A stretch of 36,218 nucleotides of DNA from Gaiellales bacterium (GTDB taxonomy: Bacteria > Actinomycetota > Thermoleophilia > Gaiellales > JAICJC01): NCBI GenBank assembly GCA_036273515.1, contig DASUHM010000051.1:1-36218 (forward strand), in the 5' to 3' direction. This document shows positions 10,286 to 27,774 of the stretch, piece by piece. The notes under the pieces were generated by a model. The model saw only the letters and a program-made list of their open reading frames with translations. It had not been told where the DNA came from and ran no database searches. Made by a program: the position numbers and the translations under genes. The stretch's first letter is position 1. Every line of letters starts with the position of its first letter.

Positions 10286-10294
10286 AGCGGAAAG

Positions 10295-10570: not shown

Positions 10571-10705
10571 TCACCCGTCTACCACGTCCAGGTGCGCCGG
10601 GCGTCGCACCCGGTCTCCGAATGGGTGGCGGTCGACGTCGCCGAGGACGAGCGCGAGGCCGCGCGGATCGCGGTGCGCCGCGGGAACGTCCGCCGTCAGT
10701 GGTAG
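10571..10705 (+). pseudogene. Short coding-like remnant after tRNA-His
   Basis: The frame ending with TAG at 10703-10705 reads VYHVQVRRASHPVSEWVAVD and then VAEDEREAARIAVRRGN. The composition looks like protein rather than antisense noise. No ATG or ribosome-binding site is present; the only near start is GTG 10592. It may be the 3' end of a lost gene or a small unannotated protein. I recognise no family. Confidence 0.25.
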
Positions 10706-11760: not shown

Positions 11761-11888
11761 CTCTCACGAGCGTACCCGCAGAAGCGAGCGCCGCATAGCC
11801 CGGCGGGGAGGCCGAATCGAGACTGGACTCCCGGGACGCCGTTAGGATGGCCGCGTCAGAGGCGAACGCGGCTTCTGGACTGAAATCG

Positions 11889-11961
11889 GCGCCCGTAGCT
11901 CAGGGGATAGAGCAGCAGACTTCGAATCTGCGTGTCGGAGGTTCGAATCCTCCCGGGCGCA
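11889..11961 (+). tRNA. tRNA-Arg (anticodon UCG)
   Basis: The 73-base gene has acceptor stem GCGCCCG/CGGGCGC, D arm GCTCAGGGGATAGAGC, anticodon stem GCAGA/TCTGC around CTTCGAA (TCG) and T arm GGAGGTTCGAATCCTCC. The discriminator is A and no CCA is encoded. Confidence 0.97.
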
Positions 11962-11998
11962 TCCTTGCGAGCCTGCACCCGACCGGAGACTGACGCTC

Positions 11999-12358
11999 GT
12001 GCTCCCGGACCCACCCGGCCATCGTCGACGCACGATCGCCGGTGGGATTGTGGGTGTGGCGGTCCTCGTCGTGCTCTACGCGCTTGTGAGCGTGTACCTC
12101 GTCGGCCTGGCATGGCCCTACCCGGTCGTTCTGCCGGACAGCTTCACGCTCGACGGCTACACGTACCATCGCCAGGCCGAGTGCCGGCCGCTCTCGGCCT
12201 GGGGGATGCACCTCCGCGAGGTGGGCTCGCTGGCCAGCGCCGCCTGGGTGGGCAGCCGTCCGGTCTACTCCTACCGGCGAGGCTTGTCGCCGTACGCCTG
12301 GGTCGTCGTTCGCGACGACGGCTGCTACCGGTTCTACGGCGGCGACGTGGGCGGCTGA
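11999..12358 (+). CDS. Small single-span membrane protein, unknown function
   Basis: The 119-residue product begins at GTG 11999, with GGAG about ten bases upstream. After a basic start (PPGHRRRT) there is one hydrophobic helix (IVGVAVLVVLYALVSVYLVG, about residues 18-37), then an exported domain with two cysteines (Cys62 in the ECRP segment and one in DDGCYRFYGG near the end) that could form a disulfide. I recognise no family. It lies 37 bases after tRNA-Arg and is followed within six bases of its stop by a composite repeat. Codon use looks like that of a real gene. Confidence 0.7.
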   Translation: MLPDPPGHRRRTIAGGIVGVAVLVVLYALVSVYLVGLAWPYPVVLPDSFTLDGYTYHRQAECRPLSAWGMHLREVGSLASAAWVGSRPVYSYRRGLSPYAWVVVRDDGCYRFYGGDVGG

Positions 12359-12364
12359 CCAATG

Positions 12365-12433
12365 TGTCACGAAAGGCGCACGGAACTGCAACGCTCAGCG
12401 TTCGGGGTCTGACCCCGCTTGGTGGTCGTGACA
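12365..12433. repeat. GGGGTC-core composite palindromic element, copy 2
   Basis: Outer arms TGTCACGA (12365-12372) and TCGTGACA (12426-12433) form a perfect eight-base inverted repeat. Inside are two adjacent palindromes: AACGCT-C-AGCGTT (12390-12402) and CGGGGTC-T-GACCCCG (12403-12417). The second shares its core with elements at 9971 and 29679. The element begins six bases after a stop codon and lies just before a histidine-kinase remnant. Nested arms of this type resemble REP or MITE structures. Confidence 0.55.
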
Positions 12434-12462
12434 ACTGGCGACACCACGTCTACACTGCGCCG

Positions 12463-12662
12463 CTTGTTGGCTGCCCGACACACGAGGCGCTCGCGAACGC
12501 GCGCAAGCACGCCAGCCCCGCCGCCATCACCGTGCGGCTCGGCGAGAACGGCGGCACGGGCCCGGTCGGCGAGGTGACCGACGATGGGCGCGGGTCGAGC
12601 TGACGTCGACGCCTGACCGCGGCACGCGGGTCGCCTTCTCGGTGCCGCTTTCGCTCGGACGG
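12463..12662 (+). pseudogene. Remnant of a NarL-type sensor histidine kinase (ATPase domain)
   Basis: One frame reads HEALANARKHASPAAITV and then TDDGRGSS before a stop at 12601-12603, matching the N box and G1 box of a HisKA_3/HATPase kinase. Directly after, in another frame, DRGTRVAFSVPL (about 12615-12650) matches the C-terminal strand of the same domain. The catalytic-domain part between them, including the G2 box, is missing, as is everything upstream. It is therefore an internally deleted, frameshifted relic. It lies immediately upstream of the next small gene. Confidence 0.55.
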
Positions 12663-12713
12663 GACTCGCGCGCGCCGGTTTCACCGTCGCCAGGCCGGGG
12701 TAGGCCAGAGGGC

Positions 12714-12971
12714 ATGACCCAGGACCGGATCCCCCGAGAGAACGCACGCGAGACCGAGCGTCAGGCAGACACGAGCGAGACGACCGCGGCCACGGCCGCG
12801 AAGAACACGGGCCGGGCGCTGCTCTGGCTCCTCATCGCGGTGGCGATCGTCGTCGTGATCATCGGCGTGTTCCTGCTCGGCCCGCTCGGGCTCTTCATCC
12901 TCGTCCCGGCGGTCCTGATGATCTGGTTCGTCTCCGGCCTCGCGGCCGGCGGCCCGGCAACGGGCGCCTAG
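12714..12971 (+). CDS. Small two-helix membrane protein, unknown function
   Basis: The 85-residue protein starts at ATG 12714 with AGAGGG about six bases upstream. It has a charged N-terminus (RIPRENARETERQ) and two closely spaced hydrophobic helices (about residues 35-56 and 58-77) joined by LLGPLG. No family is recognised. Its stop overlaps the stop of the convergent histidine-kinase gene in the sequence CCTAGG, so the two genes end back to back with no terminator between them. Confidence 0.72.
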   Translation: MTQDRIPRENARETERQADTSETTAATAAKNTGRALLWLLIAVAIVVVIIGVFLLGPLGLFILVPAVLMIWFVSGLAAGGPATGA

Positions 12972-14260
12972 GCCGGCGCGCCGGCGGGCGGGAACCGCAC
13001 CGCCGCAAGCGTCCCACCCCCCGTGGCCGGCTCGAGCGTGAGCACCGCCCGGTGGCGCTCGCAGATGGCCTGCGCGATGGCGAGGCCAAGGCCGCTCCCG
13101 GAGATGCCGCTCGAGGCCGACCCGCGGTAGAAGCGGTCGAACGCGCGCTCGCGATCCTGCGGCGTCAGGCCGCGGCCGCGGTCGGTCACGGTCAGCGTCG
13201 GGCCGGCGAGGTCGCTGACCGTGACGAGCACCGGCGAGCCGGCCGGGCTGTACTTGAGGGCGTTGTCGACCAGCACCCGCACGAGCTCCCCCAGTCGGCG
13301 CTCGTCGCCCGACACGGTCACGGGCGCGAGCGACGCCTCCAGCGGCCGCTCGGGGTCGAGCGCGCGCATCTCCTCGCAGGCCTCGGCGGCGACGACGTCG
13401 AGCCTGACCGGCACCGAGCGCATCGCCGGGCTGCCGGCCTCGGCCAGCGAGAGCAGCTCGGCCACGGTCGCCGACACGCGCCGCGTCTCGTGCCCGATGA
13501 CCGCCGCCGACTCCTGGACGAGATCCCACTCCTCCCGCTCGACCGACCGGGCCAGGATGCGCGCATGCCCCTGCAGGGCGGTGAGCGGCGTCTTCAGCTC
13601 GTGCGAGGCGTCGGCGACGAACCGCTGCTGCTGCTGGGCTGCGAGCTCGGCCCGCTCGAGCAGCCGGTTGAACGCGTGCGCCAGGCGACCCAGCTCGTCC
13701 GGCCGGCCCTCGGTGATGCGGCGGTCGAGCGCGTCGCCGGGAATGTCGTCGACCTGCTGGCGCATGCGATCGACGGGCCGCAGCGCCCGTCGCGCCAGGA
13801 ACGCCCCCATGAGGCCCGCCGCGATGAGGATGCCGATCCCGACGGCCACCAGCGTGCGCAGCAGCGTGTCGAGCGTCGAGGCGACGCTGCGGTTCGCGAG
13901 CAGCACGATCGCCTGGCCCCCGTCGCTGCGGGTGACCCGCGCGCTGGTCGCGCCGGACGGGGCGCGGGCGATCGCCCTGCGCACGCCGGCGAGGGTATGC
14001 CCGGGGGCGCCCGTCGTCGAGTTGAGGACGACACCGCCCGCGCCGGTGACCCAGATCCGGTCGCCCGGGGCGGCCATGCCGTCGAGGCGCAGCTCGTTCG
14101 GCTCTCCCCGGGCCGCGGCCCGGGCCAGCCGCTTCGCCGAGCGCTGGGCCTCGCCGCGCAGGTCGGAGCGGACGATCGCGTACGTGATCGCCGAGGTGGC
14201 CACCACCAGCACCGCCATCACGAGCACGAACCAGGCCGCCAGGCGAAGGCGGACGCTCAC
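12968..14260 (-). CDS. Membrane sensor histidine kinase (HAMP, HisKA, HATPase)
   Basis: The 430-residue kinase has membrane helices at about 8-28 and 135-155 around a short extracytoplasmic sensor of about 100 residues. A HAMP linker follows (ALRPVDRMRQ), then the dimerisation/phosphorylation motif ADASHELKTPLTAL with His220. The ATPase domain has N box VLVDNALKYSP (Asn333), G1 DRGRGL, F box FDRFYRG and G2 GSGLGLAI. GTG 14260 overlaps the regulator stop (GTGA), so the pair is translated together. The sensor domain has no recognisable ligand-binding family. The family senses envelope or environmental signals; the specific signal is unknown. Confidence 0.95.
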   Translation of the reverse strand: MSVRLRLAAWFVLVMAVLVVATSAITYAIVRSDLRGEAQRSAKRLARAAARGEPNELRLDGMAAPGDRIWVTGAGGVVLNSTTGAPGHTLAGVRRAIARAPSGATSARVTRSDGGQAIVLLANRSVASTLDTLLRTLVAVGIGILIAAGLMGAFLARRALRPVDRMRQQVDDIPGDALDRRITEGRPDELGRLAHAFNRLLERAELAAQQQQRFVADASHELKTPLTALQGHARILARSVEREEWDLVQESAAVIGHETRRVSATVAELLSLAEAGSPAMRSVPVRLDVVAAEACEEMRALDPERPLEASLAPVTVSGDERRLGELVRVLVDNALKYSPAGSPVLVTVSDLAGPTLTVTDRGRGLTPQDRERAFDRFYRGSASSGISGSGLGLAIAQAICERHRAVLTLEPATGGGTLAAVRFPPAGAPA

Positions 14261-14937
14261 CGGCGAATCGTGTACCCGACGCCGCGCACCGTGCGGATGA
14301 TCGACCCGTCCTCGGACGTGTCGAGCTTCCGCCGCAGCGCCGACACGAAGAAATCGATCACCTTGCTCTCGCCCAGGTAGCTGAAGCCCCAGACGCCCTC
14401 GTAGATCTGCTCGCGGGTGAACACCCGGCCGGGCGCATGCATGAGGAAGGCGAGCAGGTCGAACTCCCGGGCGGTGAGCTCGACCGCGGCGCCGTCGACG
14501 GTCACGTCGCGCGACTCCAGGTCGAGCCGAACGGGGCCGGCCTCGAGCGTCGTCTGGTCGCTCCCAGCTCGGCGACTGAGCGCGCGCAGGCGGGCCAGGA
14601 GCTCCTCGATCGCAAACGGCTTGGCGAGGTAGTCGTCGGCCCCCGCGTCCAGCCCGACCACCCGGTCGCCGACACGATCGAGCGCGGTCAGCATCAGGAT
14701 CGGCATGTCGTGGCCGGAGCGGCGCGCCCGGCGGCACACGCTCAGGCCGTCCATGTCCGGCAGGCGCACGTCGAGGACGACCAGGTCGGGACGGTCGCGC
14801 TCCATGGCGGCGAGGCCGTCACAGCCGGCCGGTGCGACCTCGACCCGATACCCCGCCTCGCCCAGCTCCAGCTCGAGCACGCGCGCGATGGCCGGATCGT
14901 CCTCGACGACGAGCACGCGCTGCGTGGAGGCGTTCAC
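14257..14937 (-). CDS. OmpR/PhoB-family response regulator
   Basis: The 226-residue regulator has a receiver domain with acidic pair EDD at 12-14, phosphorylation site Asp56 (VVLDVRLPDMDG), Thr/Ala in MLTALD and Lys105 in LAKPF. A winged-helix output domain follows (LTAREFDLLAFLMHAPG, VIDFFVSALRRKLD, IRTVRGVGYTI). I chose GTG 14937 because homology begins immediately after it and a TATCGT box ends six bases before it, which suggests a leaderless message. Upstream ATGs would add an unlike 30-residue extension. It is paired with the adjoining sensor kinase. Two CGTAAG repeats 22 bases apart upstream suggest autoregulation. Confidence 0.95.
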   Translation of the reverse strand: MNASTQRVLVVEDDPAIARVLELELGEAGYRVEVAPAGCDGLAAMERDRPDLVVLDVRLPDMDGLSVCRRARRSGHDMPILMLTALDRVGDRVVGLDAGADDYLAKPFAIEELLARLRALSRRAGSDQTTLEAGPVRLDLESRDVTVDGAAVELTAREFDLLAFLMHAPGRVFTREQIYEGVWGFSYLGESKVIDFFVSALRRKLDTSEDGSIIRTVRGVGYTIRR

Positions 14938-15471: not shown

Positions 15472-16503
15472 ATGTGGAGATGGGTACTCCCGGTCGCGGT
15501 CGTTGTCGCGGTCCTCTTCGGGTTCATGGCGAGCCGCAACGGACCGACCGAGCACAAAGGGGCGCACGCCACGCCGACCATCACGACGCCTCCGACCACG
15601 GCCGCCTCGACGGTCGCGCCGATGTGCGGCTCGACGCAAGGCCAGGCGGCCAGGGTGCGCCACGTCGTCTGGATCTGGATGGGCACGCAGGCCTACACAC
15701 ACATGATGGGCAAGCTGCGCGTCGCCCCGTACATCAACCAGCTCGCCCAGGCCTGCGGGGCCGCGGTCCGGTACACCACGATCACCCACCCGGCGATCTC
15801 GAACGACGTCGCCGTGCTGACCGGCAACATCAACGGCCTCGTCCACAACTCGTGCGACACGACGTGCACGACGACGGCCCCGAGCCTCCTCTCGCAGGTG
15901 CCGTCCTGGCGGGCGTTCATCGGCGGCATGCCGGGGGCATGCCGGAAGCTCGCCGGAGCGAGCTATTCCCGTCTCTCCAATCCCCCCACCTACGTCACGC
16001 CGCCCGGGTGCGCGAAGTACGACCTGCCGCTGGGCACGCCGAGGCAGGGCCCGCTGCAGCGCGCGCTCGCGCAGAACGCGCTGCCGGCCTTCACGCTGAT
16101 CGCGCCGGACGGCTGCCACGACAGCGGCTTCGACAAACACTGCGGCGGCAAGCTGAAGCGGGCGGCGTTCCTGGCCCGGGCCGACCTCTGGCTGCAGGGC
16201 TGGATCAACGCGCTGACGAGCTCTCCGGCCTACAAGTCGGGGGCGACGGTCATCTTCGTCACCTGGAACCAGGGCGCGCCTGCGAAGCCGCTGCGAATCG
16301 CCTGCACGAGCGGTCCGGCCCGCGGCGCCTGCCAGGTGCCGCTGATCGTCCTCTCGCCGCACGTCAAGCCAGGGTCGGGGACCGCGGAGCGCCTCAGCCA
16401 CTACAGCCTGCTCGGCGCGACCGAGACCCTGCTGGGCGTCCCGCGCCTGGGGAATGCCGCGGGCCCGTCCGGCCAGGCCCTCCTGCGAGCGTTCGGCCTG
16501 TGA
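15472..16503 (+). CDS. Phosphoesterase (PF04185-like) fold protein with substituted catalytic residues
   Basis: The 343-residue protein has an N-terminal membrane anchor (VLPVAVVVAVLFGFMA, 5-20), a Thr/Pro-rich linker and an extracellular domain with ten cysteines. The fold follows the phospholipase C/acid phosphatase family: HVVWIWMGTQAYTHMMG, THPAISNDVAVLTGN, VIFVTWNQG and VPLIVLSPHVKPGS with HYSLL. At the first three motifs the active family normally has metal-binding Glu-Asn, a nucleophile Ser and Asp-Glu. Here they are Gly71-Thr72, Ala108 and Asn266-Gln267. It therefore looks catalytically dead or repurposed. It overlaps the GH5 gene (GTGA) and faces the polysaccharide operon, so a surface-glycan binding role is possible. 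Confidence 0.82.
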   Translation: MWRWVLPVAVVVAVLFGFMASRNGPTEHKGAHATPTITTPPTTAASTVAPMCGSTQGQAARVRHVVWIWMGTQAYTHMMGKLRVAPYINQLAQACGAAVRYTTITHPAISNDVAVLTGNINGLVHNSCDTTCTTTAPSLLSQVPSWRAFIGGMPGACRKLAGASYSRLSNPPTYVTPPGCAKYDLPLGTPRQGPLQRALAQNALPAFTLIAPDGCHDSGFDKHCGGKLKRAAFLARADLWLQGWINALTSSPAYKSGATVIFVTWNQGAPAKPLRIACTSGPARGACQVPLIVLSPHVKPGSGTAERLSHYSLLGATETLLGVPRLGNAAGPSGQALLRAFGL

Positions 16504-17777
16504 GGCTAGCCGCCCTCGCGGCGCTTGGCTGCGCACTGGTCCTGGCGGCCGCGTGCGGCGGCAGCGGCGGCGCCACGGACGACGGCGGCGTCGGCTCCGG
16601 CCCGCTGCCGCCTCCCCCGCCGCCGGTCAGCACGAACAAGGCCTCCGACATCGTCAAGCCGTGGGTGACGACGTCGGGCGGCAGGTTCGTCGACCAGAAC
16701 GGGCAGCCGGTGATCCTGCACGGGTTCGACATGTCGGTCGGCATGTCGCATCTGGCCCCCGTGGCCCAGCAGCTGGGCGCGAACATGGCCCGCGTGTACG
16801 TCGGCTGGGACGCGATCCAGCCCGAGGCGCCCAGGAACGGCCACTACCGCTGGGACGCGAAGACGCTCGGCAAGCTCGACAAGATCGTCGCCGCGTTGCG
16901 GGCCGTGCACATCAACGTCCTCATCGACTTCCACCAGTTCCACTGGTCGCCCTACTTCGCGCAGGCGACCTGCAAGGCGGGCAAGACGGTCTGCCGGGCG
17001 AGCGGCGTGCCGGCCTGGTACTACGCCGGCGGCCGCTTCCCGGCGACGCGGAGCGGCTCGTCACACGCCGAGGCGGCCTTCTTCACGACCGAGGCGTCGC
17101 GCTCGCAGGCCTACTACTCCGCCTTCGCCAGCATGATCGCCGCCCGCTATGCCCGCGACGCCAACGTCATCGGCTACGAGATCCTGAACGAGCCGCACCC
17201 GGGCAAGCTGGGCGACACGACCGAGGCGACGAACACCATGCTGCGCTGGCAGGCCGGGATCCGCCGCGCCATCCAGAAGGTCGACCCCACCCGCACCGTC
17301 TTCATCATGTGCCGCGGCGGCGGCGAGGGCGTCGGCACGGCCGACCTGAAGCCGTTCGGCTCGCTCGACCACATGGCGCTCGACTGGCACGACTACTTCA
17401 ACGGGCTCTCGGGCGGCCTCGACGCGGCCGGCGACAACTGGGTGCCGTCCTGGGCGGACACCCACAACCAGGAGACGTCGTCGTACACCGGCACCGAGGC
17501 GGCGCAGGCCCGGGTGCTCCAGGTGCCGCTCGAGCGGGCCAAGTCGTGGGGGATCCCGCTGCTCATCGGCGAGTGGGGATTCCACACCGGCGCGCCCGGG
17601 AGCGACACGTACCAGCAGCAGATGCTCGACCTGTTCCAGAAGCACGGCGTGAGCTGGACGCGCTGGGTGCTCGCCACCGGCGGTGGCTTCGCCCTCCTGA
17701 ACGCCGACGACACGCCGACGCCCGAGGCCGACCAGCTCGGAGCGGCGATGCGCGCCACCACCGCCACCACGCCTTAG
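16500..17777 (+). CDS. Glycoside hydrolase family 5-like lipoprotein
   Basis: The 425-residue product starts at GTG 16500, overlapping the previous stop. It has a lipoprotein signal ending at Cys19 (VLAAAC), a Gly/Pro-rich tether (about 20-45) and a TIM-barrel glycosidase. Family signs are VILHGFDMS, NVLIDFHQFHW, YEILNEP with the acid/base Glu231, DWHDYF, and LLIGEWG with the nucleophile Glu358. The pattern resembles endoglycoceramidase-like and cellulase-like GH5 enzymes. It would sit on the outer face of the membrane and cleave a beta-glycan. Its position converging on a polysaccharide synthesis operon suggests trimming or release of that polymer, which is inference. Confidence 0.92.
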   Translation: MRLAALAALGCALVLAAACGGSGGATDDGGVGSGPLPPPPPPVSTNKASDIVKPWVTTSGGRFVDQNGQPVILHGFDMSVGMSHLAPVAQQLGANMARVYVGWDAIQPEAPRNGHYRWDAKTLGKLDKIVAALRAVHINVLIDFHQFHWSPYFAQATCKAGKTVCRASGVPAWYYAGGRFPATRSGSSHAEAAFFTTEASRSQAYYSAFASMIAARYARDANVIGYEILNEPHPGKLGDTTEATNTMLRWQAGIRRAIQKVDPTRTVFIMCRGGGEGVGTADLKPFGSLDHMALDWHDYFNGLSGGLDAAGDNWVPSWADTHNQETSSYTGTEAAQARVLQVPLERAKSWGIPLLIGEWGFHTGAPGSDTYQQQMLDLFQKHGVSWTRWVLATGGGFALLNADDTPTPEADQLGAAMRATTATTP

Positions 17778-17996: not shown

Positions 17997-19580
17997 CTAG
18001 GTGGTGACCGGCTGGGCGCGGCGGCGCCGGCGCGTGCGCAGCGTGCCGCCGAGCAGTACGAGCTCGACGCGGTCGCGGAACCTCCACAGGATCCACGCGT
18101 AGCCGGCGGTGCCGACCACGATGCAGATCAAGAGCGCCGGGATGGTCGTGCCCATCGTCAGCCGGAGGGCCATCCCGAGCACGCCGTAGCAGAGCAGGGA
18201 GGCGCCGGCCGCGACCGGGAACCCGCGCCCGAACGGGTGCACCTTGAGGAACGCGCGCACCTCGGCGAGCGGGGCGACGTTGTTCACGAGCAGGCTGCCC
18301 GCCCAGGCGATGGCCGCGCCGACGATGCCGATCTGCGGGATGAGCAGGAGCCCGAGCGCGATGTTGACCGTCAGGGCGACGATGACGTTGAAGAGGTTCC
18401 AGAAGCTGCGCCCGCCCATCAGGAGCACCATGTCGACGGGCCCGATGCCGGTGGCGACGAGCATCGCGATCGCCAGGATCTCGAGCGTCGACGTCCCGCT
18501 CACGTACTGCGGCTTGAAAACCCTCAGGAGGAGCGGCGCGAACACGGCCAGGCCGATGTACATCGGCCAGGCCATCATCATCAGCCACGCGGTCGCGACC
18601 TGGTAGACGTCCTGTGCCCGCTCGCGCGCACCGGCCGTCAGGAGCTCGGAGAGCTTCGGGCCGATGGCCTGGATGATTGCCAGGTTGACGACGCTGCCCG
18701 CGACCAGGTACCGGCTGGACGCCGTGTAGATCGAGGCGCTGGCGGTGTCCATCAGCGACCCGACCATCAGCGTGCCGACCCACAGCGTCGTCACCTGGAA
18801 GATGCCGGTGAGCCCGCGCGGCGCGGTGAAGACCCAGAACTCGCGGTAGAGGCGGCGCATGTCGGTCGGCGGCTTCGTCGCCCGCTCGCGCCGCTCGACC
18901 CGGTGGACGAGCCGGCCCAGCCACAGCAGCGTGATCGCGAACGCGATCCCGATCGGCAGGCTCCACGCGACTGCGACCGCGAAGCTGCCGCCGCCGGCGA
19001 GCACGGCGAAGGCGACCGCGAGCGTCTGCGCGCCGGACTTCGCGATCCGGTCGAGGAGCGCGTTCGGCACCATCGTCCCGAAGCCGCGCGTGGCCGCGAT
19101 GGCCACGGTGTAGGCGGACGAAAGTGGCAGGAACACCGCCAGCACCTGGATGTACGTCGCGACGGCCTCGGCGTCCTGGTGGCGGTGATTCGTGAAGACG
19201 GCCGCGAGCGGAGCCGCGAAGGCGAAGGAAATCGCCGCGAGCAGCACGCCGGCCGCGAACGACGGGACGAGCCCCACGCTGAGGCTGCGGCGCACGTCCC
19301 CGATCCGGCCGCTCACCCGGTAGCTCGGGATCATGCGCGTGAGCCCGGTGTCGGCACCGCACTCGGCCGTGTTGGAGAGGATCAGGAAGAGGGCGATCGC
19401 CTCGAAGAAGGCGCCCGACTCGTTGCGCGTGAGCGCGCGCGTGACGACGACCACCAGCGCGAACTGGAAGAGCCCGTTGGCGACCGCTCCGATGAAGTTG
19501 AGCGACCCGCCCCGGGCGACCATCTTGAGGTCGTCGGTACGCGCCCGCTGTGCAACCGCGGGCTCGTCCACAGCGGTCAC
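17997..19580 (-). CDS. Polysaccharide flippase, Wzx/MATE-like (oligosaccharide exporter)
   Basis: The 527-residue membrane protein has about 12-14 hydrophobic helices and the N-terminal pattern of polysaccharide exporters: ARGGSLNFIGAVANGLFQF followed by VVTRALTRNESGAFFEA. It should flip lipid-linked repeat units across the cytoplasmic membrane. I chose GTG 19580 because it overlaps the upstream sulfotransferase stop (GTGA). A start at 19613 is possible but would overlap by 37 bases. It is the last gene of the eight-gene leftward operon. Confidence 0.93.
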   Translation of the reverse strand: MTAVDEPAVAQRARTDDLKMVARGGSLNFIGAVANGLFQFALVVVVTRALTRNESGAFFEAIALFLILSNTAECGADTGLTRMIPSYRVSGRIGDVRRSLSVGLVPSFAAGVLLAAISFAFAAPLAAVFTNHRHQDAEAVATYIQVLAVFLPLSSAYTVAIAATRGFGTMVPNALLDRIAKSGAQTLAVAFAVLAGGGSFAVAVAWSLPIGIAFAITLLWLGRLVHRVERRERATKPPTDMRRLYREFWVFTAPRGLTGIFQVTTLWVGTLMVGSLMDTASASIYTASSRYLVAGSVVNLAIIQAIGPKLSELLTAGARERAQDVYQVATAWLMMMAWPMYIGLAVFAPLLLRVFKPQYVSGTSTLEILAIAMLVATGIGPVDMVLLMGGRSFWNLFNVIVALTVNIALGLLLIPQIGIVGAAIAWAGSLLVNNVAPLAEVRAFLKVHPFGRGFPVAAGASLLCYGVLGMALRLTMGTTIPALLICIVVGTAGYAWILWRFRDRVELVLLGGTLRTRRRRRAQPVTT

Positions 19581-20500
19581 CGCTCGGCCCGGTCGCGTTC
19601 GCCCGCCGGCCATCCCATCCGCATGCCCAGGAACTCCTCCAGCCTCCGGTTCGGCTCGGCGTAGTGCCGCTCGAGCCGCTCACGTGTCTCGGCCGCCATG
19701 CCCGCAGCCGGACGTGCATTGTAGGCCTTGAACCCGGGCGCGCTCGGCGGGTCGGGCAGGCCGAGGAAGCGCAGCACGCCGGCGTAGGTCGACGCGGGGT
19801 TGGAGAAGAACCGCTCGGCGCAGATCACGTGCATCTGCTCGGCCGGGAAGTGCTCCCGCCAGGCCGCCAGCTGGTCGACGTACTCGCCCCGGGCCACGTA
19901 GGCGTGGTGCTGCACCGCCGGGCTGGCGTACGTCGGGTCGGCCAGCATGTGCTCACGCTCGCCGGCAAGGCGCGACGGCTCCAGGTCGAGCGCCTCCTCG
20001 AACGTCTCGGCGTCCTCGAACCCGCGCGCGTACTCCTGGCGGTAGTGCGAGTAGGCCCGCTCGACCGGGTCGCGCAGCATGGCGATCACGCGGGCCTGCG
20101 GCACCGCCGCCGCCGCCCGGGCCGGGCCATGCGGATGAAACAGGTAGTAGGGGCTGCCCTCGCCCGTGACGACCGGGCCGCCGTGGCGGTGCTCACGCGC
20201 CCGCCGCGCCCGCTCGGTGGGGAAGTGGGCCCGGTACCAGCGCAGGGAGCGGTCGGGGTGCAGGTCGAAGTAGTGCACGCCCTTGCTCGGCATCGCCGGC
20301 ATCACCTGCGGGTGCTCGAGCAGGTAGCGGTAGAGCGAGGTCGTGCCGCTGCGCTGGGCGCCGATGATGAGGAAGTCGGGCAGCGGCCGCTGCGACGCGG
20401 TCAGCATGTTCCAGCCGGTGACCGCCTCCCGGCCCGCCGTGATCACCGGCGCGGGCAGGCGCGAGTAGTTGTCGTTCTTCGATCCCCGTTCGCGCGGCAT
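19577..20500 (-). CDS. Sulfotransferase, heparan-sulfate-type domain (operon copy 3)
   Basis: The 307-residue protein shows the PAPS-binding 5' loop in FLIIGAQRSGTTSLYRYL (about 43-60), with GVHYFD further on, and the 3' phosphate-binding motif RDPVERAYSHY (143-153). These are diagnostic of the Sulfotransfer_1 family, which moves sulfate from PAPS to a sugar hydroxyl or amine. No signal or membrane segment is visible, so it acts in the cytoplasm before export. ATG 20500 shares one base with the upstream stop (TGATG). It lies between another sulfotransferase and the flippase, which supports modification of the repeat unit. Confidence 0.92.
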   Translation of the reverse strand: MPRERGSKNDNYSRLPAPVITAGREAVTGWNMLTASQRPLPDFLIIGAQRSGTTSLYRYLLEHPQVMPAMPSKGVHYFDLHPDRSLRWYRAHFPTERARRAREHRHGGPVVTGEGSPYYLFHPHGPARAAAAVPQARVIAMLRDPVERAYSHYRQEYARGFEDAETFEEALDLEPSRLAGEREHMLADPTYASPAVQHHAYVARGEYVDQLAAWREHFPAEQMHVICAERFFSNPASTYAGVLRFLGLPDPPSAPGFKAYNARPAAGMAAETRERLERHYAEPNRRLEEFLGMRMGWPAGERDRAER

Positions 20501-21312
20501 CAGCGCACTCCCTGCAGAGGCGTCAGCGTCTGCGGCTTCCGGAGGCTGTAGCCGAAGCGGGCGACCCGCTCCTCGAGCGTCTCCATCGCCTTCTCGATGT
20601 CCGACCCCGTACCCGGGTTGTGGCGCGCAAGCGACCAGCGCCGGAAGTACGAGTCGTTGATGTCGGTGCGCACGTGAAGGCCGCTCGGGCGCGGCTCGAG
20701 GCCGAGGAACCGGTAGACGTCGGCGAGCCGCTCGTCCGGGCTCGAGACGAACTCCTCGTAGCGCATGACGAGCATGTGATCGATCGACCCCGCGTCCTCG
20801 AGCATCAGCTCGTGGCAGTGCAGCCAGTGCTCGACGAGCGAGGAGTAGGACATCCGCCGCCACGTCCGCCGCTTGCGCCCGAACCGGCGCGTCGCGGCCG
20901 CCACGGCGATCGGGTGGCGCAGGATCATCACCATGCGCGAGTCGGGGAAGAGCGCCTGCAGGAAGCGCGAGCGGATCAGGTTCGGCGGCGACTTCTCGAG
21001 CAGCACCGGCCGGGTCGCATCCCAGTACTTCCCCCACTGCTCGAGCAGGCGGGTGCGGCTGGCGTCGGAGACGAGCGCCGAGGTCTCGGTGAGATGCGCC
21101 TCCGGGTCGAAGCCGAACCGCCCCGGCCCGCCGTAGGCGCGCCCAGGCTGGTAGACGTTCTGGAGGTGCTGGCCCTCGTCCTCGGGCGCGCGCGTGCCGG
21201 AGAAGCCGCTCACGTCGGGGTGCTCGGCCAGACAGCGGGCGAGCAGCGTGGTGCCGCTGCGATGCAGGCCGCCGACAAAAACGAACCTGTGGTCCTGCCA
21301 GTCCATCGTCAT
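20500..21312 (-). CDS. Sulfotransferase family protein (operon copy 2)
   Basis: The 270-residue protein has the PAPS loop FVGGLHRSGTTLLARCLAEH (about 12-31) and the second motif MVMILRHPIAVAAATRRFGR. SPPNLIRSRFLQALFPDSR precedes it, as in Sulfotransfer_3-type enzymes. ATG 21312 overlaps the polymerase stop (ATGA); a second ATG lies two codons downstream. It is distinct from the neighbouring sulfotransferases in sequence, suggesting different acceptor positions. Cytoplasmic, PAPS-dependent sulfation of the polysaccharide is inferred from context. Confidence 0.9.
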   Translation of the reverse strand: MTMDWQDHRFVFVGGLHRSGTTLLARCLAEHPDVSGFSGTRAPEDEGQHLQNVYQPGRAYGGPGRFGFDPEAHLTETSALVSDASRTRLLEQWGKYWDATRPVLLEKSPPNLIRSRFLQALFPDSRMVMILRHPIAVAAATRRFGRKRRTWRRMSYSSLVEHWLHCHELMLEDAGSIDHMLVMRYEEFVSSPDERLADVYRFLGLEPRPSGLHVRTDINDSYFRRWSLARHNPGTGSDIEKAMETLEERVARFGYSLRKPQTLTPLQGVR

Positions 21313-22649
21313 GCCGGGACGAGCGCCCTCCGCCGCGCCGGTTTGATCGGTCGCTCCGGGGCCGGTTCGGACTCCGTCTCGGTCTCCGGGCCTCGCATCA
21401 TCACACGGTAGGCGATCGCGGCGGCCACCAGCATGATCGGGAGGCGTTCGGTGATCTCGTAGTACGGCACCTGGATGAGCGCGATCAGCAGCGACACGTG
21501 TGCCCAGAACGCCCAGGGGGAGCGCCACCGGGCCGACCGGAAGAGGGTGTAGAAGAACCACAGCATCCAGAGGCCCAGGCCCGGGATCCCATGGGAGAAC
21601 ACGAGCAGGAAGATCTCGCTCTCCGTGCCGACGGAGCTCTGGGTCGGATCGGACGAGGGCAGCGGCGCGGCGAACCCGAGCAGCGGCGACTCGAGCAGCC
21701 GCTGCTGGGCCTCCTGGTCGCGCTGGATGCGGCCGGCGTCACCGGTCTTGTGCTGGAACCGCCCCTGGGCGAGGTCGCCGAGCGGGCTCAGCGACACCAC
21801 CGCGGCCAGGATCGCGATGACCGCGAGGACGCGGCCGACCTGGCGGAAGTCGCCGCGCATGCCGAAGCGGATCATCGCGTAGACGATGCCGATGCCGAGG
21901 CTGAGCCAGAGTCCGCGGTTGAGCGAGAAGACGACCGGGACGAGCGAGAGCGCCATCGAGATCTGGAGCGTCCGCCTCCACGCCCGGGCCTTCGCCTGGG
22001 TCATCGCGCAGATGGCGAACGGCGTCAGCATGGCGAAGCTCGAGCCCCAGGCGTTCGTGTACGGGAAGAACGTCTCGGGCCGTCCGACCGGGAAGCCGAG
22101 AAAGTGCTGCACCTCCGCGAACTGCAGGTGGACGTGCTCGAAGACGTACTGGTTGTGCAGGAACCCGTGCGGGAGCAGGTACTGCATCGGGCTCGCGAAG
22201 CTGACGTTCGGGAAGAGCACGCCCAGCCAGCCGCCGAACACGATCAGGATCCAGTAGAAGGCGAGCGCGTTCACGATCGACCGGATCGAGACCTTCCAGT
22301 CGGGGACGTTCACGATGTAGAGGAAGATCACGGTCCCGGCCATGTAGAACGATGCCCGCCAGGCCCAGGCGATCATGCGGCCGGTGTTGGTGAGCTCCAT
22401 GGCCGAGGCGCAGATCCACAGCACGAGCAGCAGCCAGATCCCGAACCGGCGCGGCACCTGCACGTCGCCCCGGCGCAGCGCCAGCGATCCCGCCAGGGGG
22501 ATCGCGATGAGCACCCAGACGATCGCCGAGAGCCCGATCAGCCAGAAGAGCGGCAGCAGCGCGAACATCGCGTACGCCTGCCAGCCGTGGGGCAGCACCC
22601 ACCCCGGAGGCAGGTTGAGATTGACTGGGGCAGCCTGGATCCGACGCAT
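21309..22649 (-). CDS. Wzy/O-antigen-ligase-like polysaccharide polymerase
   Basis: The 446-residue integral membrane protein has about ten or more hydrophobic segments and a large loop between later helices (LAQGRFQHKTGDAGRIQRDQ then EAQQRLLESPLLGFAAP). In Wzy/WaaL proteins a loop of this kind, often carrying such Arg/His-rich and SPLLGxG motifs, holds the active site. It should polymerise flipped repeat units on the outer face of the membrane. It starts ten bases after the preceding sulfotransferase stop, the only junction in the operon without overlap. The C-terminus is charged and cytoplasmic (ETETESEPAPERP). Assignment as polymerase rather than ligase follows from the monoderm context. 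Confidence 0.85.
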   Translation of the reverse strand: MRRIQAAPVNLNLPPGWVLPHGWQAYAMFALLPLFWLIGLSAIVWVLIAIPLAGSLALRRGDVQVPRRFGIWLLLVLWICASAMELTNTGRMIAWAWRASFYMAGTVIFLYIVNVPDWKVSIRSIVNALAFYWILIVFGGWLGVLFPNVSFASPMQYLLPHGFLHNQYVFEHVHLQFAEVQHFLGFPVGRPETFFPYTNAWGSSFAMLTPFAICAMTQAKARAWRRTLQISMALSLVPVVFSLNRGLWLSLGIGIVYAMIRFGMRGDFRQVGRVLAVIAILAAVVSLSPLGDLAQGRFQHKTGDAGRIQRDQEAQQRLLESPLLGFAAPLPSSDPTQSSVGTESEIFLLVFSHGIPGLGLWMLWFFYTLFRSARWRSPWAFWAHVSLLIALIQVPYYEITERLPIMLVAAAIAYRVMMRGPETETESEPAPERPIKPARRRALVPA

Positions 22650-22659
22650 CTCGTGAGCC

Positions 22660-23601
22660 TCAGCCGTGCTGGCGCAGGTAGCCGTACCGGAGCAAGAGCG
22701 GCCACGTCACGAGCACGACGATCGACCGCGTCTTCGCGGCCATGCCGGTGCGCCAGGCCTCGTCGGTGCGCACCTTCTGTCGCCCGTGTGCGAACCGCAT
22801 CGGGTTGCCGCGGACGCTGTGCTGGCCGGACACCTCGACCGAGTCGCCCACCGCCGAGAGGTCGTGCTCGCCGGCCTCGCCCATCTCGGCGAACATGCGC
22901 TCGAGCTCGCCGCGGGGGTCGGCCGCGAGCGCCTCGTACCGCATGCCGACCGTAGGCACGCGCAGCCGCCGCAGCGCCTCGAACGCGAGGTTGCACTCCA
23001 TCCAGCGGACGCCCGCCTTGAGGGGCGAGAACTCCTGGAAGAAGGCGTCGCCGTTCGTGATCTCGGGCCGGGCCATCCGCTTCGCCCACGAGTGGGCGGC
23101 GCCGCGGCTGTCGCGGACGAGGTGCAGCACCCGCAGCCGCAGCCCGGACGCCTGCGCGGCCCGCAGGAAGTAGGCGTACGGCGGGTTCTTGGTCGAGTCG
23201 ACCACCACCTCGGCGCCGGACACCTTCTGGATCGCCCGGTAGAGGCTCGCCGTCAGCTCGGCGTAGCGCTTGACCTTGCGCTCGTGCTCGGGCGCGAGCT
23301 TCCCCATCAGGAGCAGCGGGACGTTGCGGTGGCGCAGGACGGCGCTCTCGAGCGCGAGCACCTCGTTCACGTCGATGTTCTCCCAGCCGCCGAACGCCTC
23401 CTGTCCGACCGCCGTCCAGAACGGGCACTCGTCGAACGTGAGGCCGCAGCCGCAGAGCTCGTTGGCCTCGGGGCCGGCCTGCCAGACGTAGCGCAGCTCG
23501 CCGACCGAGACGAAGCCCGGCACCTCGGCGAGGACGTGGGCGAGCAGCGTCGAGCCGCTCCTCCCCCACCCGCCGATGTAGAGGACGGGGACGCCGCTCA
23601 C
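22660..23601 (-). CDS. Sulfotransferase family protein (operon copy 1)
   Basis: The 313-residue protein opens directly with the PAPS loop VLYIGGWGRSGSTLLAHVLA (6-25) and has a second motif LHLVRDSRGAAHSW. A Cys-rich CGCGLTFDECPFW segment between them is typical of a bacterial sulfotransferase subgroup. GTG 23601 overlaps the upstream glycosyltransferase stop (GTGA). It is the first of three sulfotransferases in the operon and the one nearest the glycosyltransferase pair. Cytoplasmic action on a lipid-linked sugar is inferred. Confidence 0.9.
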   Translation of the reverse strand: MSGVPVLYIGGWGRSGSTLLAHVLAEVPGFVSVGELRYVWQAGPEANELCGCGLTFDECPFWTAVGQEAFGGWENIDVNEVLALESAVLRHRNVPLLLMGKLAPEHERKVKRYAELTASLYRAIQKVSGAEVVVDSTKNPPYAYFLRAAQASGLRLRVLHLVRDSRGAAHSWAKRMARPEITNGDAFFQEFSPLKAGVRWMECNLAFEALRRLRVPTVGMRYEALAADPRGELERMFAEMGEAGEHDLSAVGDSVEVSGQHSVRGNPMRFAHGRQKVRTDEAWRTGMAAKTRSIVVLVTWPLLLRYGYLRQHG

Positions 23602-24176
23602 GCCGACCGCCGGGTCGCGGGATCCGAGCCCACGGCTCGACGCTTGGGCGTACGCGTCTTGTTGAGGAGCTCGTCGATCAGCTGCTCGAACGCCGCCACG
23701 GCGGGTCCGGGGCCGGCGCCGGCGGGCGGAAGCTCGGCGGCCGAGCCGGCCAGGCCGAGCGCGCCGTCGAGGCACGAGCGCAGCTCGTCGTCGGACTGGG
23801 CCAGGAGGATCGCCCCGTCGCGGGCGATGCGCTGGGCGAAGGCGAGCTGGTGGTCGTCCACGTGCTCGCCGAACTGCTTGCGCCGGGGGACGACGATCGG
23901 CCGCTTGCCGAGGGTCGAGGCCAGCATGATCGTGCCCGGCCCGCCGTGGCAGACCACCACGGTCGCCTCGCGCACCATCGCGTCCATCTCCTCGTGGCCG
24001 AGGTACTGGCGGTGCTCGGCCAGCTTCGGAACGGCCGACGTGCCGGTCTGCACGAAGCAGCGGGCGACCTCGGAGCCGCCGCCCTCGAGCCAACCGTCGA
24101 TGAAGCGCGACATGCGGTCGAACGGGTGGTAGTCCGTCCCGACCGTGACGAAGACGAGTGGCAGCCGGGCGCTCAG
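23598..24176 (-). CDS. Glycosyltransferase catalytic subunit, Alg13/PssE/EpsF-like (GT28 C-terminal domain)
   Basis: The 192-residue protein is a single GT-B C-terminal half. It begins LVFVTVGTDYHPFDRM and carries VVVCHGGPGTIMLASTLGKR and PIVVPRRKQFGEHVDDHQ, the UDP-sugar-binding motifs of Alg13-type subunits. Such proteins need an Alg14-type membrane partner, encoded immediately upstream. Family members start a few residues before VFVTVGT, but no ATG, GTG or TTG lies there. CTG 24176, overlapping the partner's stop as CTGA, is the best start, in line with other junctions here. The only alternatives lie far upstream within the partner gene. The sugar donor is unknown. Confidence 0.9.
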   Translation of the reverse strand: MSARLPLVFVTVGTDYHPFDRMSRFIDGWLEGGGSEVARCFVQTGTSAVPKLAEHRQYLGHEEMDAMVREATVVVCHGGPGTIMLASTLGKRPIVVPRRKQFGEHVDDHQLAFAQRIARDGAILLAQSDDELRSCLDGALGLAGSAAELPPAGAGPGPAVAAFEQLIDELLNKTRTPKRRAVGSDPATRRSA

Positions 24177-24622
24177 AACAGCCCGCCGATCACGCGCGCG
24201 CCGGGATAGAACTTGCGCTGCTCCTCCCACTGCACCACGAACAGGCTCGTGAACGGCCGGCACAGCTTGCCGGTCAGCGTGGGCGAGTCGATCCGGTCGT
24301 ACACCTCGAGATAGACCGTCGGCACGCGCATGACCCGGGCCACGATGAAGAACGGGAAGGCCACGCCCGCGCCGTCCGACACGACCACGTCCGGGCGGTA
24401 GCGCGGCACCATCCGCGCCGCGAGGACGAGGTTCCGGATGGTGTTGCGCAGGTTGCGCGTCGTCGGGAAGTGCGCCCAGGCGACGTCCTCACCCTCGAGC
24501 AGCGAGCGGCTGTCGGGCAGGTCGAAGGTGACCCACTTGCGCTCGTGCTTGCTCCACCACGGCTTGAGTTGGTGAAGCTGGATGAGATGGCCGCCGGACG
24601 AGCAGACCAGCATCACCTTCAC
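24173..24622 (-). CDS. Glycosyltransferase membrane subunit, Alg14/PssD/EpsE-like
   Basis: The 149-residue protein begins VKVMLVCSSGGHLIQLHQLK, the signature of Alg14-like subunits, and has DVVVSDGAGVAFPFFIVARV, a hydrophobic membrane-contact segment, then YLEVYDRIDSPTLTGKL. It forms the acceptor-binding, membrane-tethered half of a split GT-B enzyme with the next gene product. GTG 24622 overlaps the upstream stop (GTGA). In exopolysaccharide clusters such pairs add the second sugar of the repeat unit. No priming phosphoglycosyltransferase is seen in the window. Confidence 0.92.
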   Translation of the reverse strand: MKVMLVCSSGGHLIQLHQLKPWWSKHERKWVTFDLPDSRSLLEGEDVAWAHFPTTRNLRNTIRNLVLAARMVPRYRPDVVVSDGAGVAFPFFIVARVMRVPTVYLEVYDRIDSPTLTGKLCRPFTSLFVVQWEEQRKFYPGARVIGGLF

Positions 24623-26316
24623 AGGAGCTCTGTCTCCCGCGTCTGGCTGGGATGCGGCATGGCCTCCGTCGGGGCCGTCCCGCCGAGGTAGCCGCCGTAC
24701 TCCTGCGACTCGTCCTGGGTGCCGCCCACGAAGACGAAGCCCAGGCGGGGCGCGGCGCACGCGTCGAGCGCGCGGCCGAGCGCGACCAGGTGGGGCCGGC
24801 TGGCGAGCCGGGCGCGGGCGACCGCGACCACGGCGTCGACCTTCGTGCCGAGCACCATCGCGTCGGTGACGGGCAGCATCGGCGGGGCGTCCACGAGGAC
24901 GACGTCCGCGCGGCCGCGCAGCTCGCGCAGGAGCTCGGTCATCGCCCGGCTGTCGAGCAGCTCGGCCGCATCGCCGGGGATCGGGCCGGCCGGCAGCACC
25001 TCGAGCAGGCCGCCGCCGCTGGTCGTCGACGTGCCGTTGGAGCCGACCTCGACGGGATGCTCGCGGCTCACGTCGACGATCGTCAGGGCGTCGCCGAGCT
25101 GGCTGTGGCCGGAGAGGATGTCGCTCACGCCCATGCGGTCGTCGAGGCCGAAGAAGCTCCCGAGGGCAGGCCGGCGCATGTTCGCGTCGACGACGACCAC
25201 ATGCTGACCGGCGCGGGTGAGCGCGACGGCGAGGTTCGCGACGGTGGTCGACGTCCCCTCGTCATCGGAGGCACTCGTGAACATGATGACCTTCATGCCG
25301 CGGCGCAGCGTCGAGGCGAGGTTCAGCTTGAAGATGCGGTACGCCTCGGCGGTCGGCATCTGGGCGGCGCCCTGCGGCGAGAGCAGGACGACGGCGTACT
25401 CGCGCAGCGCGCGCGGCCGGGCCGGGATGCTCGCGAGCAGCGGCAGCCGCAGCCGGCGGCCGACCTCGGCCACGGTGCGGACGCGCGTGTCGAGCAGGTC
25501 CTGGAGGAAGGCCAGGATGATGCCCAGGATCAGGCCGAGCACCAGGCCGATGGCGGCGTTGCGGCTCGTCTTCGGCTGGGTCTGGCTGGCGGGCTGCGCC
25601 TGCTTGGGGGCGAGCTGGTTCGTGACGCTCTGCTTCGAAATCTGCTTCTGGACGATCTTTGTACCGTCGGCCGTGATCGTGTTGGTAAGGATCGAGGCCG
25701 AAGCCGGTGTGATCGTCCGCGTGATCGTCTCCCCGTCGACGTTCACCGTGACTGTGACGGTCGTCTGCGCGGTCGCGGCCTTCTTGTCCTGATACGCCTG
25801 CGAGAGCGCCTGCGCGATGTCCTGCTGCTTGGTCAGGTTCGCGATCGACGCCTCGATGCCGGCCTGGTCGAGCCGGTTCGCATACGAGCCGCTCTGGACC
25901 GCCCAGAGGTTGGCCAGGCGCTGCGCGGTCGCCGCATTCGGGTCGGTGACCGTGAAGTCGATTGCGTCGACGAGCGGGTCGGCCGCCACCTTGGTCTCGC
26001 TCAGGAGCTGTGCGGCGCTGAGGCCCTTGAGCCCCGACTGCTTGACGACCCAACTCGCGGCCTGGGTGGTCGCAAGGAGTGGTGCATGCGCGGCCGACCA
26101 GGCGTTGGTGGGGGCGTTCTTGCCCGAGGAGGTGTTCGCGGCGGCGGTCGTGTTCACAAGCTGCGAGGTCGCGGCGTAGAGCTTCTGCTGGCGCTCCGAG
26201 AACCCGACGGCGGCCGCCGTGACCATGACGGTCACGAGCAGGACGATCCACTTGCGCCGCCAGACGACACCGATGTAGTCGCTCAGTGAGACGGACTCAT
26301 ACCAACCGTTTTCCAC
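24619..26316 (-). CDS. Wzz chain-length/tyrosine autokinase fusion with altered Walker A
   Basis: The 565-residue protein has a Wzz-type N-terminus: YIGVVWRRKW, membrane helix at 23-39, a long extracellular coiled and Thr-rich region, and a second helix near GLVLGLILGIILAFLQDLLD. It is fused to a BY-kinase domain. Walker A' (VVVVDANMRRP) and Walker B (DVVLVDAPPML) are intact. The P-loop reads SDDEGTSTT instead of the usual GEGKSTT, so the ATP-binding lysine is Thr355. The C-terminal tail has only two tyrosines (QEYGGY) instead of a cluster. I chose GTG 26316 for the GAGAGGA seven bases upstream. It heads the polysaccharide operon and probably controls chain length, perhaps without kinase activity. 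Confidence 0.93.
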   Translation of the reverse strand: MENGWYESVSLSDYIGVVWRRKWIVLLVTVMVTAAAVGFSERQQKLYAATSQLVNTTAAANTSSGKNAPTNAWSAAHAPLLATTQAASWVVKQSGLKGLSAAQLLSETKVAADPLVDAIDFTVTDPNAATAQRLANLWAVQSGSYANRLDQAGIEASIANLTKQQDIAQALSQAYQDKKAATAQTTVTVTVNVDGETITRTITPASASILTNTITADGTKIVQKQISKQSVTNQLAPKQAQPASQTQPKTSRNAAIGLVLGLILGIILAFLQDLLDTRVRTVAEVGRRLRLPLLASIPARPRALREYAVVLLSPQGAAQMPTAEAYRIFKLNLASTLRRGMKVIMFTSASDDEGTSTTVANLAVALTRAGQHVVVVDANMRRPALGSFFGLDDRMGVSDILSGHSQLGDALTIVDVSREHPVEVGSNGTSTTSGGGLLEVLPAGPIPGDAAELLDSRAMTELLRELRGRADVVLVDAPPMLPVTDAMVLGTKVDAVVAVARARLASRPHLVALGRALDACAAPRLGFVFVGGTQDESQEYGGYLGGTAPTEAMPHPSQTRETELL

Positions 26317-26493: not shown

Positions 26494-26562
26494 CCCTGCA
26501 CATTGGCAGTATTAGCACGTGATTGACGGATTCTGGGCCCACACACGGGTACGGTGTTCGGC

Positions 26563-27774
26563 ATGAGGGATGCCGACGCCTGCATGCGGGGACTGGCTGC
26601 CGCCGACGATCGTGTGCGGGTCGGACCGGCGCCGCCACCCGGATTCCGGTGCGTCGACGCCTACGTCGTCCTCCCGTCCCTGCGCCGGCCGGGGATGCTC
26701 GTGCCGGCGGGAGCCCGCCGCGGGGCCGCCGCGGCGGCGCGCCAGTATCTGCTCCTTCCCGGCCGAAAGGGGACGGCGGCGACGAGCGTGGCGGCGGCGG
26801 CACTGCTCAGCGGCCTGCCCCAGCGGCTCGGCCGCAGCCGCCTCGGCGTGCACGTGGCGGCGGGCGTGAGCGAGGCCGAGCTGCCCGATCTCGTGCTGCG
26901 GCACCGGCTGGCCGCGCTCCTCGGGACGCGCGACGTCGAGCTCGTCGTCCGGGTCGGCGCGAACCGGCCCAACGGCAAGCCGGTCGTGCAGGTCGGCGAC
27001 CCGGCCGGCCGCGTGCTCGCGTACGCGAAGGTGGGCTGGAACGAGCTCACCCGCCCGCTCGTCGCCGCCGAGGCCGATGCGCTGGTGAGCTTCGCCGCCC
27101 GCCCCGATCCGCCGCGCACCTTCAAGGTTTCCCGCCTGCTGCACGCGCTCGAGTGGCAGGGCAACACCGTCACGGTCGTCGAGCCGCTCGTCGGCGGGGA
27201 GCCCGTGTCGGCGTTCGATCCGCCTCGCGACGCCACCCACGAGCTCGCCCTCGGTGGGATCGTCACGCGGTCGACGCTCGCCGAGAGCGGCTGGTGGGCC
27301 GACGTGCGGGCGCGGATCTCCGCGGTCGGCGCCGACCTCGACGCCGCCGCCGACGCGATCGCCGCCGGGGCGGGCGGGACGCTGCTCGGCTTCGGGCGCG
27401 GGCACGGCGACTGGACGCCCTGGAACATGCGCCGCCTGGACGGGCGGCTGGTGGTCTGGGACTGGGAGCGCAGCCGCGAGGGCGTCCCGGTCGGCATCGA
27501 CGCCGTTCACTACGGCCTGCTCATGGCGCTGAACGCGCGCAAGCTGCCGCCGCCGCGCGCGGTCGCCGACACGCTCGAGCGCACGCCCGGCTGGCTCGCC
27601 GGCCTCGACCAGCCCGCCGAGGCGGCGCACGTCATGGTATGTCTCGAGCTGCTCGAGATGTCGCTGCGCTATGCCGAGGCCCGCACGGCCGGGGTCACGC
27701 TGCGGAGCGACCGATTCGGTATAGCCCTTCACCGGCTCCTCGATTTACCGCCCGACACGGCACCCGTACCATGA
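26563..27774 (+). CDS. APH/choline-kinase-fold phosphotransferase
   Basis: The product, about 403 residues, has kinase-like motifs: a strand lysine in VLAYAKVGWNE, a candidate helix glutamate in AAEADAL, the catalytic loop GHGDWTPWNM (HGD with Asn five residues on) and the metal-binding VVWDWERS. These are the features of the aminoglycoside/choline kinase fold, and all key residues are present. An N-terminal extension of about 130 residues resembles no resistance kinase. The start is ATG 26563, seven bases after a TACGGT box, or GTG 26554. It diverges from the polysaccharide operon, so phosphorylation of a sugar or surface-glycan precursor is a possibility. Antibiotic resistance is not supported by the sequence. 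Confidence 0.82.
   Translation: MRDADACMRGLAAADDRVRVGPAPPPGFRCVDAYVVLPSLRRPGMLVPAGARRGAAAAARQYLLLPGRKGTAATSVAAAALLSGLPQRLGRSRLGVHVAAGVSEAELPDLVLRHRLAALLGTRDVELVVRVGANRPNGKPVVQVGDPAGRVLAYAKVGWNELTRPLVAAEADALVSFAARPDPPRTFKVSRLLHALEWQGNTVTVVEPLVGGEPVSAFDPPRDATHELALGGIVTRSTLAESGWWADVRARISAVGADLDAAADAIAAGAGGTLLGFGRGHGDWTPWNMRRLDGRLVVWDWERSREGVPVGIDAVHYGLLMALNARKLPPPRAVADTLERTPGWLAGLDQPAEAAHVMVCLELLEMSLRYAEARTAGVTLRSDRFGIALHRLLDLPPDTAPVP

Follow-up and report, generated by a model that had tools for sequence, protein, structure and literature searches.

The window analysed here is the whole of contig C51 (DASUHM010000051.1; 36,218 bp) of an uncultured actinobacterium of the order Gaiellales, whose assembly (GCA_036273515.1) spans 4.07 Mb in 98 contigs and is 96.6% complete. 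Eight genes on the minus strand, read from 26316 to 17997, encode in order a Wzc-like protein, PssD, PssE, a first sulfotransferase (ST1), Wzy, two further sulfotransferases (ST2 and ST3) and Wzx, and together they probably specify a Wzx/Wzy-dependent pathway for a sulfated exopolysaccharide. A sequence-only reading had placed a compact operon of eight genes here; all are present and the domain searches agree, while the same reading missed a kinase-like gene (26554-27774) and a secreted glycoside hydrolase family 5 (GH5) gene (16500-17777), both of which belong to a conserved locus larger than the eight genes. The features are as follows (Wps names refer to the wps-1 cluster of Actinoplanes missouriensis; PAPS, 3'-phosphoadenosine 5'-phosphosulfate).

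24619-26316, minus strand: Wzc-like chain-length/co-polymerase protein, 565 aa (PF02706, TIGR01007), with a degenerate ATPase domain by Walker A comparison.
24173-24622, minus strand: PssD/Alg14-like glycosyltransferase subunit, 149 aa (NF041549 at 114.9 bits, above the cut-off of 110; PF08660).
23598-24176 (start approximate), minus strand: PssE/Alg13-like glycosyltransferase subunit (PF04101; NF046028, PssE/WelK C-terminal, over the C-terminal half; NF041548 at 76.7 bits, under the cut-off of 120).
22660-23601, minus strand: sulfotransferase ST1, WpsB-like, CGCG-type PF13469 (PF13469 at 2.8e-9; AlphaFold model; PAPS motifs).
21309-22649, minus strand: Wzy-like polymerase of the O-antigen ligase/Wzy_C superfamily (PF04932 at 2.5e-7 and 31.1 bits, just below the cut-off of 31.7).
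20500-21312, minus strand: sulfotransferase ST2, EDEGQHLQ type (PF13469 at 1.2e-27; phmmer to tyrosylprotein sulfotransferase 2, 3e-9).
19577-20500, minus strand: sulfotransferase ST3, WpsH-like, heparan-sulfate 3-O-sulfotransferase type (PF13469 at 4e-17; phmmer to 3-OST-3A1, 7e-20; motif survey).
17997-19580, minus strand: Wzx-like flippase (PF01943 at 6.8e-10; tree).
26554-27774, plus strand, divergent from wzc: WpsI-like kinase-like protein with an aminoglycoside-phosphotransferase fold (alignment; Foldseek).
16500-17777, plus strand, convergent with the operon: secreted or lipoprotein GH5 enzyme (PF00150 at 4e-28).

As had been noted at first reading, start-stop overlaps join almost all of the eight genes: GTGA at wzc/pssD, pssE/ST1 and ST3/wzx, ATGA at wzy/ST2 and TGATG at ST2/ST3. 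The exceptions are a 10-nt gap between ST1 and wzy and the pssD/pssE junction, which holds no ATG, GTG or TTG and where the pssE start is unsettled between a CTG at 24176, overlapping the stop, and a GTG at 24263. The wzc gene starts with GTG at 26316, with GAGAGG upstream. Flippase, polymerase and co-polymerase stand within one locus, the combination expected of a Wzx/Wzy-dependent pathway; neither a priming phosphoglycosyltransferase (PGT) nor a WpsA-type family 2 glycosyltransferase (GT2) was found in it.

Order and orientation of the eight genes are kept in both other genomes of the genus, at amino-acid identities of 78-96% (G002) and 51-81% (G001), and because of this conservation the locus exceeds what chance would assemble. 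The GH5 and kinase-like genes hold the same positions in all three genomes, unlike most of the remaining window neighbours, which are lost in G001. Ratios of nonsynonymous to synonymous substitution (dN/dS) for the ten locus genes are 0.07-0.43 between the window and G002 and 0.24-0.75 between the window and G001, consistent with purifying selection acting on all ten; for the eight operon genes taken by themselves the ranges are 0.07-0.43 and 0.24-0.72. The N-terminus of the GH5 protein resembles a signal or lipoprotein sequence, and both the acid/base (NEP) and the nucleophile (GEW) motif are present. A Pfam search of the kinase-like protein returned no match; Foldseek pairs its predicted structure with those of fructosamine-3-kinase, glucosamine kinase and aminoglycoside phosphotransferases, and Lys159, Glu173, HGD284-286, Asn291 and Asp303 are invariant in the alignment of its relatives, so that it apparently retains an intact small-molecule-kinase fold. 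Elsewhere in the window, tRNA genes (Leu, His, Arg) at 10294-10483 and 11889-11961, upstream of a two-component pair, are ordinary.

Related sets of genes recur as a cassette well beyond the genus. Of 121 genomes from the order, 7 have ST1 relatives and 34 have ST3 relatives; exactly 4 encode the kinase-like protein, and all of these carry the cassette. A member of another family of the order (G069) has PGT-PssD-PssE-Wzy-kinase-ST3, with Wzx, GT2, ST1 and a family 26 glycoside hydrolase (GH26) nearby, on two contigs overlapping by 141 bp, and so includes the primer missing from the window locus. Vertical inheritance of one cassette by the window genus and G069 was considered and not adopted, the two Wzx proteins lying apart in a tree with weak support and long branches. 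An ST1 scan of 84,980 species genomes yielded 80 best relatives, whose loci were examined and come nearly all from Actinomycetota (Micromonospora, Nocardiopsis, Glycomyces, Actinomadura, Nocardioides, Dactylosporangium, Acidimicrobiales, Euzebyaceae and others). Within the examined flanks of these 80 loci lie ST3 (67), Wzy (62), Wzx (61), the kinase-like gene (61), GT2 (60), a glycoside hydrolase (50), Wzc (38) and PGT (26). PssD/E is present in 48 and WecG in 23, the two never together, and a CysD/N/Q, APS-kinase (APS, adenosine 5'-phosphosulfate) or Sat gene adjoins 38. All five genes that we define as core (ST1, ST3, Wzx, Wzy and kinase-like) occur in 52 of the 80, in 45 of the 64 loci longer than 15 kb, and also in the window, whose genes outside the cassette recur in at most 6 loci. 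GH5 has no counterpart among the 80; GH26 or another hydrolase takes its place. One single-contig genome of 4.6 Mb carries a run of ten: PGT, Wzc, Wzx, ST3, kinase, Wzy, GT2, ST1, PssE and PssD. With the kinase family as a sequence marker (7 of 399 genomes of the class; 20 of 396 in a phylum sample, some of these matches weak), the cassette's distribution is sporadic. Sulfotransferase copy number also varies: a sister locus of the same class (L086/L165) has both ST1 and ST3 duplicated. The earlier view that dedicated sulfation is uncommon in non-marine bacterial capsules does not hold up, with a related sulfotransferase cassette widespread in Actinomycetota and wps-1 itself published in June 2026.

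The sulfotransferases were compared by homology searches and a motif survey, ST1 also by structure prediction. A phmmer search of ST1 against the PDB gave no credible match and its fold was predicted instead; the AlphaFold model matches PAPS sulfotransferases, best the tyrosylprotein sulfotransferases (E ~1e-6). Motifs binding the 5' and 3' phosphates of PAPS (RSGST/RSGTT; RDS/RHP/RDP) are conserved in ST1, ST2 and ST3. ST2 was seen in only one of the 80 other loci and, on this distribution, is a lineage-specific addition, the core sulfotransferases of the cassette being ST1 and ST3 only. ST3 aligns with heparan sulfate 3-O-sulfotransferases (3-OSTs) and N-deacetylase/N-sulfotransferases (NDSTs) across most of the sulfotransferase domain; in contrast to them it is bacterial, lacks a membrane segment and reads KGVHYF, with Gly at the position of their catalytic Glu (Glu184, the catalytic base of 3-OSTs; PMC8341778). 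In the cassette clade Gly or Ser stands in place of the Glu, Ser in four members from Nocardioides and Leucobacter; a single change on a tree of 81 sequences accounts for KG versus KE. Either ST3 uses an alternative base, for which a conserved His would be the candidate, or it may not be a conventional enzyme. Three sulfotransferases had suggested up to three modified positions; the three genes are there, and the count of positions is uncertain, as ST2 is lineage-specific and the usual catalytic Glu is missing from ST3. The genome has nine PF13469 matches, three of them in the window locus. On contig C43 (L016, G000:C43:93001-113000, 9380-14432) a polysaccharide deacetylase adjoins an ST2 paralogue (57%), a third sulfotransferase-like open reading frame and an ST1 paralogue (47%), with no Wzx/Wzy genes close to the paralogues. 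On C4 (L020, 10668-16506) a second sulfotransferase has Wzy_C and Wzx genes as neighbours close to the contig end; this may be a further sulfated-polysaccharide locus of the same genome.

The Wzc-like protein has also changed at its active site. Its Walker A motif reads EGTSTT in place of EGKSTT, and the lysine that characterizes bacterial tyrosine kinases of this type is absent. Cassette Wzc proteins mostly lack this lysine, those of Micromonospora, Glycomyces and Dactylosporangium being more degenerate than the window's, while two (L074 and L100) retain EGKS/EGKT. Despite this loss, a separate kinase-like protein is core to the cassette. The Wzc of contig C6 of the same genome retains EGKSTT; it belongs to a conventional exopolysaccharide cluster (L019, G000:C6, 5398-14299) with a priming transferase and several glycosyltransferases. 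We did not find the loss of the ST3 Glu or of the Walker A lysine reported before, and both recur across cassettes.

Two expectations of the sequence-only reading concerned enzymes elsewhere in the genome, and both were borne out. It had named absence of a PAPS pathway as a refutation, which fails because the genome has APS kinase and, adjoining it, ATP sulfurylase. The APS kinase is in two pieces, one at an end of C91 and the other at an end of C1; since these share 141 bp, we read them as a single gene split by the assembly and reject two broken genes. Beside these genes (L023/L024, the C91/C1 junction) lie a ComA-family phosphosulfolactate synthase, a fumarase C-terminal-domain protein, an FAD protein and TauE/SafE-type exporters, which point to possible sulfonate metabolism. 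The earlier reading had also noted that the locus lacks a primer and may rely on genes elsewhere; three priming transferases (PF02397) lie outside it, an orphan on C35, one on C72 and one in the C6 cluster, the C35 enzyme being closest in type to the PGT of the G069 cassette (47%). No close WpsA homologue (GT2) was found in the genome, the best matches (35%) lying on C49.

On these data the locus, a divergent variant of the wps-1-type cassette, is likely to direct the synthesis of an exopolysaccharide with a short repeat, made by the Wzx/Wzy route and sulfated in the cytoplasm. The sulfated exopolysaccharide first proposed stays the best reading, supported by domain and fold assignments, gene order in the genus, co-occurrence of the genes across the phylum, the PAPS and PGT genes of the genome and the sporangium defects of wps-1 mutants (PMC13390465), with sulfate itself a prediction. 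In this pathway an unlinked PGT, probably the C35 orphan, would start the repeat on undecaprenyl phosphate and PssD/PssE would add a second sugar, giving what may be a disaccharide repeat. ST1-ST3, as soluble PAPS-dependent enzymes, would then sulfate the lipid-linked unit with PAPS from the genome's own ATP sulfurylase and APS kinase. Wzx would flip the sulfated unit and Wzy polymerise it, and chain length would be set by the Wzc-like protein, which is probably inactive as a kinase. The probable substrate of the kinase-like protein is a sugar, a precursor or a partner protein of the pathway, and GH5 may trim or release the polymer, as GH26 presumably does in sister loci.

Several observations weigh against this reading. 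The lack of a primer and GT2 in the locus means that the repeat either needs unlinked enzymes or is very short. ST3 is without the catalytic Glu that its relatives of solved structure have. The PAPS genes are not on this contig but near the ComA-like synthase and TauE exporters on others, and their PAPS may serve other ends. The 80 loci were selected by ST1 similarity and are taxonomically uneven, with a few genera over-represented. The product of wps-1 is predicted to be sulfated, and its authors state that sulfate awaits verification (PMC13390465).

The alternative that survives best, itself unlikely, has the Wzy_C protein acting as a ligase, with a sulfated glycan on protein or cell wall as its product instead of a free exopolysaccharide. 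PF04932 comprises both ligases and polymerases, and the window's match falls slightly short of its cut-off; however, a Wzz/Wzc-type co-polymerase in the operon and an adjacent secreted glycoside hydrolase better fit a polymer. Somewhat less probable again is that the sulfotransferases act on a small molecule, lipid or protein and share an operon with polysaccharide genes by coincidence. Tyrosylprotein sulfotransferases are indeed nearest to ST1 by structure and to ST2 by sequence, PF13469 is a broad family, and the C43 paralogues stand outside any Wzx/Wzy locus; on the other hand, ST1 and ST3 co-occur phylum-wide with Wzx, Wzy and PssD/E or WecG, the locus contains no small-molecule biosynthetic gene, and wpsH deletion gives the same squashed sporangia as wzx or wzy deletion (PMC13390465). 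An unsulfated polysaccharide, with inactive sulfotransferase homologues as structural or acceptor-binding proteins, would suit the Gly or Ser of cassette ST3 at the 3-OST base Glu184 (PMC8341778) and the decayed Wzc ATPase in the same loci, but is the least credible of the three given the conserved PAPS-binding motifs of ST1 and ST2, the PAPS-synthesis or 3'-phosphoadenosine 5'-phosphate-recycling genes at 38 of 80 sister loci, and the disrupted sporangia that follow loss of the adjacent Sat/APS-kinase gene in A. missouriensis (PMC13390465).

Animals, algae and cyanobacteria are the usual sources named for sulfated polysaccharides. In 2026 the Actinoplanes study put forward one exception among actinomycetes, without chemistry, and the comparison made here indicates a cassette across Actinomycetota; what would be new to specialists is this phylum-wide cassette and its two active-site losses, the wps-1-type cluster having been described already. 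A bolder proposal, which we hold only tentatively and think doubtful as a whole, is a phylum-wide system for a sulfated, possibly phosphorylated, surface polymer in which a sugar-kinase-like protein replaces the decayed Wzc kinase and ST3 uses a base other than Glu. The cassette reading predicts that PssD/E and WecG can stand in for each other as the second glycosyltransferase, that the standard base is absent from the heparan-type sulfotransferase and that the kinase-like protein is core. Carriers include culturable Micromonospora, Nocardiopsis, Glycomyces and Dactylosporangium, which makes the claim testable at the bench.

Among known systems, synechan (xss, Synechocystis 6803) is the cyanobacterial parallel, a chemically verified sulfated exopolysaccharide made by a Wzx/Wzy cluster with sulfotransferases of different subfamilies; unlike the window locus, its cluster has eight glycosyltransferases and its gene list includes neither a kinase-like gene nor a glycoside hydrolase (PMC8205485). 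The PssD/E-type cassettes of Micromonospora, Nocardiopsis, Actinomadura, Acidimicrobiales and Euzebyaceae share PssD, PssE, ST1, Wzy, ST3, Wzx, Wzc and kinase-like genes with the window, sometimes in nearly collinear order (L074, L117 and L170), whereas they usually retain GT2 and a GH26-like enzyme, many also PGT and CysD/N/Q, and ST2 is the rarity noted above. A search of the accessible literature for actinobacterial sulfated-exopolysaccharide clusters found none besides wps-1, which comprises GT2, a sulfotransferase, a WecG-type glycosyltransferase, DUF4262, GH26, a methyltransferase, Wzx, a heparan-type sulfotransferase, a protein-kinase-like protein, Wzy and Wzz (Tezuka & Ohnishi, June 2026, PMC13390465). 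All its single mutants are impaired except that of DUF4262; loss of GT2, WecG, wzx, wpsH, wpsI, wzy or wzz gives squashed sporangia, and deletion of the adjacent Sat/APS-kinase gene causes severe sporangium defects (PMC13390465). Loci of Rhizocola, Planosporangium and Dactylosporangium (L116, L121 and L126) match the wps-1 gene order, DUF4262 left out of the comparison, with the families of ST1 and ST3 in the WpsB and WpsH places. The window shares with wps-1 a WpsB-like ST1, a WpsH-like ST3, WpsG/J/K-like Wzx/Wzy/Wzz, a WpsI-like kinase and a secreted glycoside hydrolase; it differs in having PssD/PssE for the WecG/TagA/CpsF-type WpsC, GH5 for GH26, an extra ST2 and non-adjacent PAPS genes, and in having no WpsA-type GT2 and no methyltransferase. 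Because the locus is without GT2, GH26 and PGT and carries ST2 and GH5 instead, we place it, on gene content, as a divergent relative of wps-1 and not as a strict member.

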